Below are positions 48,264 to 54,465 of a DNA stretch of 64,000 bases, in pieces. This DNA is from Phycisphaerae bacterium (GTDB lineage: Bacteria > Planctomycetota > Phycisphaerae > Tepidisphaerales > Tepidisphaeraceae), in NCBI GenBank assembly GCA_026004655.1, contig BPJO01000014.1, positions 1 through 64,000 of the forward strand, read 5' to 3'. Below the pieces are notes generated by a model. It worked only from the letters and a program-made list of their open reading frames with translations, searched no databases and was not told where the DNA came from. The position numbers and the translations under genes were made by a program. How positions within the stretch are numbered: position 1 is the stretch's first letter; each line of letters opens with the position of its first letter.

Positions 48264-48291
48264 TTGACCTGAGGAACGGAGGTGTTATATT
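48264..48291 (+). promoter_or_regulatory. Promoter of the S10 ribosomal operon
   Basis: TTGACC (48264-48269), 16-base spacer, TATATT (48286-48291). It lies about 100 bases upstream of the rpsJ start, leaving a long 5' leader. Confidence 0.65.
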
Positions 48292-48390: not shown

Positions 48391-48699
48391 ATGACCGGTG
48401 AGCGGATTCGTATTCGTCTAGAAGCTTATGACAACCGTGCTCTGGACCAGTCAGCCAAAGAGATCGTCGAAAACGCCAAGCGTACCAACGCGCGGGTTTG
48501 TGGTCCGGTTCCTCTTCCGACGCGTGTGGAACGGTATACCGTTCTGCGTTCGCCGCACATCGATAAAAAGTCGCGCGAACAGTTCGAAATGCGAACCCAC
48601 AAGCGAATCATTGATATTTTTGAAGCCAACGCCCGTACGATCGAGGCCTTGAATCGGTTAGTCGTTCCGGCGGGTGTTTTTGTGAAGATTAAGGCGTAA
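48391..48699 (+). CDS. rpsJ: 30S ribosomal protein S10
   Basis: A 102-residue protein, first gene of the operon; S10 helps form the 30S head and in many bacteria acts with NusB in transcription antitermination. The family pattern [20 protein letters not shown] and the C-terminal [11 protein letters not shown] are present. The ATG at 48391 gives the standard length; an upstream in-frame start at 48334 would add a non-conserved 19-residue tail. Confidence 0.97.
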
Positions 48700-48720
48700 G
48701 TCCTTGAAAATAAAGCTGTA

Positions 48721-48875
48721 ACGAGTAATCGTCGCGGCTCGTGGTGACCCGGACGTGAGGTTCATCCAAGAACCTGTGCCTGATCAACTATCAGGACGCG
48801 ATCCGGGAAGGTAATTTGTCCTTTTTTGGGACGGGCACCAGGCCTTGGAATTATTGTTAAGGTCTGCTCTGCCCG
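48721..48875 (+). ncRNA. Structured leader-like RNA between rpsJ and rplC
   Basis: Three structured parts in series. First, ACGAG/CTCGT (48721-48725 and 48738-48742). Second, a three-way junction: closing stem CCCGGACGT (48748-48756) with ACG (48796-48798) and TCCGGG (48802-48807), a 3-nt bulge; arm 1 AGGTTC/GAACCT (48758-48763 and 48770-48775, loop ATCCAA); arm 2 CCTGAT/ATCAGG (48779-48784 and 48790-48795, loop CAACT). Third, CGGGCA/TGCCCG (48832-48837 and 48870-48875) enclosing AGGCCTT/AAGGTCT (48840-48846 and 48859-48865). A short AAGG/CCTT stem with a T6 run (48808-48827) could act as an alternative terminator. The last stem ends nine bases before the rplC ATG. Pairings are seen in the sequence; regulation is inferred. 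Confidence 0.6.
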
Positions 48876-48884
48876 AGACTTAAG

Positions 48885-49547
48885 ATGACTCCAGCGATTC
48901 TGGGCCGAAAAGTCGGGATGACCCGAGTCTACAACGACAAGGGTCAGATTATTCCGGTGACCGTCGTTCAAGCCGGTCCGTGTGTGGTGACTCAGGTCAA
49001 GTCCGCCGACGGAAAGGACGGTTACCACGCCGTTCAGCTCGGTTTTGAACCGGTCGATCCCAAGCATAGCACGATGCCCCTGATCGGGCATGCTGCCAAA
49101 GCCGGGGTTCAACCCCAACGGTTTTTTCGGGAGGTCCGACTGAAGGAACCGACCGATAAAAAGCCCGGGGATCAAATCACCGTCGGGATCTTTGATGGGG
49201 TTCAGTTCGTCGATGTGGTCGGCACGAGCAAAGGAAAAGGTTTTGCCGGAGTTATGAAACGATGGAACTTCGGTGGTCAGCCGGCCTCGCACGGGACCGA
49301 ACGGAAACACCGAAGTCGTGGTTCGATCGCCTCAATGGCCACTAATCGTGGTCACAGCGGTAAACCCAAAAAAGGCCTGAAAATGGCCGGACACATGGGT
49401 GATGAGCGGGTTACCACCCGAAACCACGCGCTGGTTCGTGTGGATGTCGAGAATAACGTCCTGCTGATCAAGGGTGCTCTTCCGGGCGCCAACGGATCGC
49501 TGGTGTATGTCCGGAAAAGCATAACTGCCAAGGAAAGCAAAGCCTAA
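48885..49547 (+). CDS. rplC: 50S ribosomal protein L3
   Basis: A 220-residue 50S protein that binds 23S rRNA early in assembly and reaches the peptidyl transferase centre. Family motifs GRKVGMTRVYNDKG, the central GKGFAGVMKRWNFGGQPASHG and GSIASMATN are present. It is separated from rpsJ by 185 bp of structured RNA, unusual for this operon, and its ribosome binding site lies at the foot of the last stem. Confidence 0.97.
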   Translation: MTPAILGRKVGMTRVYNDKGQIIPVTVVQAGPCVVTQVKSADGKDGYHAVQLGFEPVDPKHSTMPLIGHAAKAGVQPQRFFREVRLKEPTDKKPGDQITVGIFDGVQFVDVVGTSKGKGFAGVMKRWNFGGQPASHGTERKHRSRGSIASMATNRGHSGKPKKGLKMAGHMGDERVTTRNHALVRVDVENNVLLIKGALPGANGSLVYVRKSITAKESKA

Positions 49548-49616: not shown

Positions 49617-50231
49617 ATGATTGAAGTACCTGTATTCAATATCGAAGGCGCCCAGGTCGGCACCGTATCGATCGACGAGCAGAAGCTCGGCGGGGAAGTC
49701 AATGCCCCTTTGCTCAAACAGGCGTTGGTTTACTATCACGCCAACAAGCGCCAAGGGACCGTCCGTACCCTCGCTCGGGGCGAGGTCGAAGGTTCGACCC
49801 GTAAACTCTATCGCCAAAAAGGGACTGGAAACGCCCGTACGGGTGGGATCCGCAACCCGATCAAGGTAGGCGGTGGTCATGCCAAGCAAAAGCGTCCTAA
49901 AGACTGGTCCCTCGATCTACCCAAAAAAGCCCGCCGACTCGCCCGTAACAATGCCCTCCTGGCCAAAATCAAAGATAATCAGCTTAAAGTCGTCGATCAG
50001 TTCACTCTTTCCGAACCGAAAACCAAACTGTTCGCGGGTGTCTTGAAGAAGCTCGGGATCGACCGCACGGTCCTGTTCGCGTTGGAATCCAAAACCGAAC
50101 CCATCGTCCGTGCCAGCCGCAATATCCCCACCACCCGATTGACGACCGTTGCCCAGCTCAATGCCTGGGATATTCTTCGTAACCGTACCGTCCTGATCAC
50201 CAAGTCCGGCTTGGAGGCACTACTGGCCTAA
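49617..50231 (+). CDS. rplD: 50S ribosomal protein L4
   Basis: A 204-residue protein lining the peptide exit tunnel. The tunnel loop region KLYRQKGTGNARTGGIRNP is recognisable and the C-terminal AWDILRNRTVLITKSGLEAL is typical. In gammaproteobacteria L4 represses its own operon by binding the leader; the same might apply here through the structured RNA upstream of rplC. It follows rplC by 69 bp. Confidence 0.97.
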   Translation: MIEVPVFNIEGAQVGTVSIDEQKLGGEVNAPLLKQALVYYHANKRQGTVRTLARGEVEGSTRKLYRQKGTGNARTGGIRNPIKVGGGHAKQKRPKDWSLDLPKKARRLARNNALLAKIKDNQLKVVDQFTLSEPKTKLFAGVLKKLGIDRTVLFALESKTEPIVRASRNIPTTRLTTVAQLNAWDILRNRTVLITKSGLEALLA

Positions 50232-54078: not shown

Positions 54079-54465
54079 ATGATTCAGCAACAAACCTATG
54101 TAGACATCGCTGACAACACCGGCGCCAAACAGGCGATGTGTATCAAAGTCCTCAAAGGGTCATCATCCCGAGGCAAGTTCAAGCGCAAAAGCGCCTACGT
54201 CGGGGATGTGATCATCGGCGTGGTTAAAAAAGCCTTGCCCAACGGAGATGTCAAGGACGGCGACAAGATCCGCTGCGTGATCGTTCGGACCAAGCAGCCG
54301 ACGCTCCGTCCGGACGGGTCGTATATCCGATTTGACCGAAACGCAGCGGTTGTGATCGACAAGGACGGCAACCCCAAGGGAACCCGTATTTTCGGAGCGG
54401 TCGCGCGGGAATTGCGTGAAAAAAATTATATGAAAATCGTCTCCCTGGCGGCTGAAGTGGTGTAA
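54079..54465 (+). CDS. rplN: 50S ribosomal protein L14
   Basis: A 128-residue 23S-binding protein of the subunit interface. [54 protein letters not shown] and [20 protein letters not shown] are all conserved. A six-residue insertion relative to the usual 122 lies around [16 protein letters not shown]. Confidence 0.97.

Follow-up and report, generated by a model that had tools for sequence, protein, structure and literature searches.

A structured RNA between rpsJ and rplC in a Phycisphaerae bacterium: a candidate L3 operator with a loop resembling helix 96 of 23S rRNA

The rpsJ–rplC gap

What is encoded in the 185 nt that separate rpsJ from rplC in this genome, and does it regulate the genes behind it? 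The window, that is, the whole stretch of 64,000 nt analyzed here, occupies part of a contig of 98.6 kb; the genome measures 3.4 Mb, and its nearest rplC matches include Phycisphaera, which assigns it to the class Phycisphaerae. Its gap (48700–48884) has the length reported in an earlier reading made from the sequence alone, the last base of rpsJ being 48699 and the first of rplC 48885. That sequence-only reading had proposed a ribosomal-protein leader RNA at this place, with a three-way junction as its core. The S10-spc genes continue after rplC, and a kinase gene is divergently oriented upstream of rpsJ. Before rpsJ there is also a promoter-like sequence (TTGACC-16-TATATT with an extended −10, 48264–48291); the scan gave this single site where chance alone predicts 0.8. 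The features of the locus are collected in Table 1.

The whole gap is predicted to fold at −72.5 kcal/mol, compared with −53.3 ± 3.9 for shuffled sequences (z = −4.96, with none of the 200 shuffles as low), which bears out the view that it is a structured RNA; the junction alone (E2) gave z = −3.26. The Rfam search suggested by the sequence-only reading found no family matching the window, and none matched six relatives and the window's own locus at a lax threshold. The lax search returned one sub-threshold match, located outside the element and taken as chance.

Table 1. Features of the rpsJ–rplC region (window coordinates)
Feature	Position	Strand	Basis
rpsJ (S10), gene upstream of the gap	48391..48699	+	ORF; 84–94% identity within the order
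E1, hairpin after rpsJ, without U-run in the window	48714..48739	+	Gap folding; alignment of relatives
E2, three-way junction; arm 2 variable	48748..48807	+	Folding, order alignment, covariance model
U-rich linker after E2, with conserved UUUGUC (48816–48821) and T6	48808..48827	+	Order alignment
Shine-Dalgarno-like GGGA directly 5′ of E3	48828..48831	+	SD-like letters in 15/15 E3 loci
E3, hairpin with 1×3 internal loop resembling the 23S H96 C-loop	48832..48875	+	Folding, covariation, rRNA comparison
rplC (L3), putative target, encoding the putative regulator	48885..49547	+	ORF
rplD (L4), second gene, rival regulator	49617..50231	+	ORF

A three-way junction confined to the order

The sequence-only reading had staked the leader on long gaps and compensatory changes in relatives. 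Among the 26 genomes of the window's order, 20, the window's own included, yielded rplC; their gaps measure 129–334 nt, E2 was found in all 20 readable ones, and both E2 and the last hairpin, E3, covary. The arms of the junction are perfect 6-bp stems, exactly as described before: AGGUUC/GAACCU (48758–48763 with 48770–48775) and CCUGAU/AUCAGG (48779–48784 with 48790–48795). The closing stem, earlier given as 9 bp with a 3-nt bulge, is instead one of 10 bp with a single bulged base (A48801), in which CCCGGACGUG (48748–48757) pairs with CGCG (48797–48800) and UCCGGG (48802–48807). The hexaloop of arm 1, AUCCAA (48764–48769), is nearly invariant, being AGCCAA in two of the 20 sequences.

Double changes were observed in 12 of the 19 pairs of E2, 83% of the cells can pair, and the covariation score was not reached by any of 500 shuffles. 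When the pairing partner was slid by 1–3 columns, paired cells amounted to 31–49% and the score to 0.08–0.11, versus 0.28 for the unslid alignment. The same three helices were recovered by RNAalifold with no structure supplied. A covariance model (R1) matches the window at 48741–48821 with 59.3 bits. Within the order, the model finds E2 confidently once in each genome, always in front of rplC; across other families of the class and phylum it gave weak matches and no confident one. The single match from the phylum beyond the order (L272) falls inside a coding sequence, and an E2-like hairpin in L131 and L154 was taken as chance because their sister L160 lacks it.

As a compact junction with an invariant loop, E2 might act as a riboswitch for a metabolite or as a small RNA in its own right, an idea that we find scarcely plausible, given its restriction to one place, one copy per genome and one order, and its failure to match Rfam. 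More probably E2 is a second conserved domain that is also bound by protein. Five of the 20 order members carry E2 without E3 (L005, L011, L014, L015, and L019), and in all of these save L005 the junction ends 1–19 nt before the rplC start. Two further ideas about its loop were discarded. Kissing between AUCCAA and the apical loop of E3 would form five or more pairs in three loci, against 5.9 expected, and a search for the loop as a 23S mimic found no TTCATCCAAGAA-like site, apart from a single TTCATCCA that lies, in one genome, within the sarcin-ricin arm.

The last hairpin lies between the Shine-Dalgarno sequence and the start codon

The leader had been said to end in an irregular 13-bp stem nine bases before rplC. 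The distance holds; the stem has 16 bp and is interrupted by a 1×3 internal loop, in which C48838 lies opposite C48867-U48868-C48869 between the flanking pairs A48837–U48870 and C48839–G48866. This arrangement of outer stem, single base opposite CUC, and inner stem recurs in 15 of the 20 gaps of the order. The A–U pair below the loop and a second A–U pair two steps above it are invariant or nearly so, while the remaining pairs covary, with 19 double-change cells over the 15 loci, a value found in none of 500 shuffles and far above the slid controls. There is one confident copy of E3 per genome, again only before rplC. The sequence-only reading is therefore upheld as to a conserved, covarying RNA and amended as to its informative part, which is this hairpin rather than the junction.

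In all 15 loci, the outer stem is immediately preceded by Shine-Dalgarno (SD)-like letters (AGGAG, GAGGA, GGAG, AAGGA, GGGA, etc.), which in every case pair better with the 16S tail (anti-SD) than does the stretch between the hairpin and the AUG. If E3 is looped out, the spacing from the SD to the rplC start is 6–11 nt in 14 of the 15 loci; in the exception, L021, the spacing would be normal from an upstream in-frame ATG. E3 thus stands between the SD and the start codon, so that the hairpin would have to form for normal spacing. The same geometry, and the terminator-like hairpins found after rpsJ in relatives (see below), would also suit an E3 and E2 without regulatory function, serving to set the SD–AUG distance, to protect the mRNA or to insulate the rpsJ and rplC transcripts. 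We judge this improbable: a plain spacer needs no fixed CUC/N loop with invariant flanks, and the same loop recurs where the hairpin is permuted and the SD arranged differently.

The same loop in other families

In family f18, the gap contains GRUC-CUC-U..A-N-GAYC, the same 3×1 loop in a hairpin closed on the other side. This permuted form covaries in an unselected alignment (18 double-change cells; 0 of 500 shuffles). Family f4 also has the permuted form, and the hairpins of f21 and f23 are built like E3. Overall there are two circularly permuted topologies, with one topology per family and a single exception in f1. Under one criterion, the 3×1 module was found in 59 of the 104 rpsJ–rplC gaps of five Phycisphaerae families, where about 2.6 would be expected (by family, 11/20, 18/28, 19/29, 9/24, and 2/3, against 0.84, 0.67, 0.62, 0.36, and 0.13), and in none of 13 gaps from other families. 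In the 63 modules extracted, the center of the loop is U in 51, C in seven, and G in five; the C-N-C letters and the U–A pair after the loop were fixed by the search, with the loop center and stem letters left free. Since 2.6% of random 185-nt segments of the window contain the loop pattern by chance, single instances are weak and the argument rests on recurrence. The module finder also selects for pairing, so that only the E2, E3, and f18 alignments count as unselected tests of covariation.

The two features usual for ribosomal-protein leaders were thus observed, namely a consistent location upstream of r-protein genes (20 of 20 loci for E2 and 15 of 15 for E3, all before rplC) and a secondary structure supported by covariation (E2, E3, and the permuted f18 form). 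Sequence comparison therefore strongly supports a conserved, covarying leader RNA before rplC that matches no Rfam family.

Similar loops were also seen outside the class. In seven loci, mostly of Lachnospiraceae (L068, L075, L086, L090, L099, L108, and L109), a hairpin before rplC with a 3×1 C-N-C loop and a varying stem was noticed by eye: UAGRA-U-GAUYGC..GCRAUC-CGC-UGUAGA..AACAGGAGG. In five of these seven loci Rfam left this hairpin unmarked, the only match being RF03136, before rpsJ. The gap of an actinobacterial MAG, UBA3086 (L060), has a single loop of this type in the permuted form, GUGGUC-CGC-UGGG..CCCA-A-GACCAC.

Resemblance to helix 96 of 23S rRNA

When the window's 23S rRNA was aligned to the Rfam LSU model, a 3×1 loop was found next to the sarcin-ricin loop, on its 3′ side (GGAC-CCC-UGG .. 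CUA-U-GUCC), where the LSU consensus is gcggaC-Cuc-ugG / Cca-u-Guccgc. From the 23S numbering, we take the loop at 2680–2684/2725–2727 to be that of helix 96 (H96). The same positions serve as the C-loop model in a paper on viroid RNA (PMC8983868). The H96 loop is present in all four 23S genes inspected. Applied to these and to five 16S sequences, the leader criterion with the U–G step picks out a single native helix, H96. The core AC-C(C/U)C-UGG / CCA-N-GU of f21 and f23 matches H96 letter for letter. A C-loop is an asymmetric loop with C first on the longer strand, and this holds for 14 of the 15 E3 sequences (L003 has U). E3 shares with the H96 C-loop (PMC8983868) the 3×1 loop, the leading C on the long strand and the U–A that follows, and differs in lying in an mRNA; the likeness is judged from sequence and Watson-Crick pairing. 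Loop and flanks are thus common to the leader and to H96 in 23S domain VI.

A first, strict rRNA search for the E3 loop, demanding U-S before it, gave nothing conserved; it missed H96, which has A-C there and surfaced later in the Rfam alignment. The 16S helix h15 was rejected as the copied site, since its 3×1 loop (CAA, then U–G) lacks the C-N-C and U–A of the leaders.

A putative L3 autoregulator

L3 is among the earliest proteins to attach to 23S rRNA. In yeast it is described as the major binder of domain VI (PMC4671574), and in Escherichia coli its occupancy tracks the order of domain VI (PMC9687910). As the copied loop belongs to a domain bound mainly by L3, and L3 is made by the very next gene, L3 is the best candidate for the ligand. 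Alongside the conservation, the covariation, the SD–hairpin–AUG geometry and the match of the loop to H96, we therefore propose, with a probability of about 0.6, that the gap serves as the rplC-operon leader and mediates translational autoregulation by L3. L3 in excess over 23S rRNA would bind the 1×3 loop of E3, folded between the SD and the start of rplC; the bound protein would clamp the ribosome-binding site and repress rplC, and the genes behind it would be repressed through translational coupling. A statement of direct contact between L3 and H96 was not found in the literature searched, which comprised open-licence papers.

The operator could also serve another ribosomal protein, such as uL14 (rplN, 54079–54465), bL19 or L4, which we consider unlikely. 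Both bL19 and uL14 adjoin H96 and H101 (PMC11354259), the S10 operon of E. coli is known to be regulated by L4 (PMC10931766), and the ligand of a leader is often not the product of its first, neighboring gene (PMC7247131). Against this, the element always lies directly before rplC, no bL19 gene was recognized among the listed operon genes, and L4 binds domain I of 23S rRNA, in which no native helix was found to contain the module. The sequence-only reading had named L4 as a candidate binder; the copy of H96 in E3 would rather favor L3.

A broader proposal, to which we give slightly less than even odds, is that operators for L3 copying the H96 C-loop as two circularly permuted hairpins arose more than once in front of rplC in Phycisphaerae and occur in Lachnospiraceae as well, the window's order combining an SD–hairpin–AUG switch with its own three-way junction. 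Should L3 prove to be the ligand, the leader would add both a regulator and an operator type to those described, one rRNA loop would have been copied in two permuted topologies by different lineages, and a small RNA would become available for measuring L3–H96 recognition outside the ribosome.

Terminator-like hairpins after rpsJ

The hairpin that had been noted ahead of the junction is present (E1). At its place, directly after rpsJ, 13 of the 20 order members carry a terminator-like hairpin with a U-run (0.25 expected), as do 16 of 28 gaps in f4 and 11 of 24 in f21. With such a hairpin right after rpsJ in many relatives, rplC is probably the effective start of the regulated unit in many species, which partly explains the location inside the operon that had seemed unusual. 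In the window itself, the terminator scan found none in the gap, where the combination of a G+C stem and a U-run is lacking. The AAGG/CCTT stem and T6 suggested as an alternative terminator do exist as letters; they are unconserved in relatives and were not called by the scan.

The hairpins of the 13 order members would fit transcription attenuation, with polymerase stopping in the gap and the leader deciding on read-through, in an L4/NusA-like manner as in E. coli. This seems to us very improbable, because they sit upstream of E2 and E3 and so form first, and because the window's E1 lacks a U-run, relatives do not preserve the T6 candidate, and the gap gave no terminator in the scan.

Relation to known leaders

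Like the leader described here, that of the E. coli S10 operon is a structured RNA controlling the S10/rplC-rplD cluster. It lies before rpsJ, binds L4, and acts partly by attenuation, whereas the present one follows rpsJ, places an H96-type C-loop where rplC begins, and is matched by no Rfam family. The S10-Clostridia leader RF03136 is also a covarying r-protein leader of this operon; it does not match here and stands before rpsJ in the Lachnospiraceae loci. The Archaeoglobi L4 leader (PMC7247131) shares the position before rplC-rplD and is set apart, by its description, as archaeal, assigned to L4, and rated borderline. A cyanobacterial "rplCD operon leader" cluster (PMC1242208), compared by description as well, is likewise a conserved RNA before rplC, listed only as a predicted cluster with no ligand. 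As in the leaders for S15, L20, and S4 that imitate rRNA on unrelated scaffolds across lineages (PMC7247131), the operator here would copy an rRNA site; the ligands and copied sites listed there include neither L3 nor the H96 C-loop. Neither an L3 ligand nor a planctomycete leader is named in the r-leader table (PMC7247131) or in a 2023 review (PMC10931766), and no bacterial L3 autoregulator was found in the open-licence literature covered.

Other RNAs in the same gap

Different RNAs were observed in the rpsJ–rplC gaps of other lineages. Family f5 and close relatives (L022, L026–L029, L031–L035, and L043) have a strongly conserved RNA of ~250–300 nt, with the motif CCACCUGAGUGAUCUCGGG ... GGACGGGAUAUCCGGGAGAACCUGACACCGC..GCGG..AACGGGUUCCC and no enrichment of the H96-type loop. 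In f3 and f12 (L112, L130, L194, L195, and L200), another hairpin, roughly CGNGUGAGCNUNAUCGCG, recurs before rplC. Nine gammaproteobacterial gaps (L051, L061, L064, L065, L071, L072, L073, L078, and L097) contain a conserved GUGUAACGC..GGCGGCCAUAGCGGGU..AGCCCCGUACAC before rplC; seven of them were searched against Rfam, with no match, and part of the motif resembles the 5′ strand of 5S rRNA.
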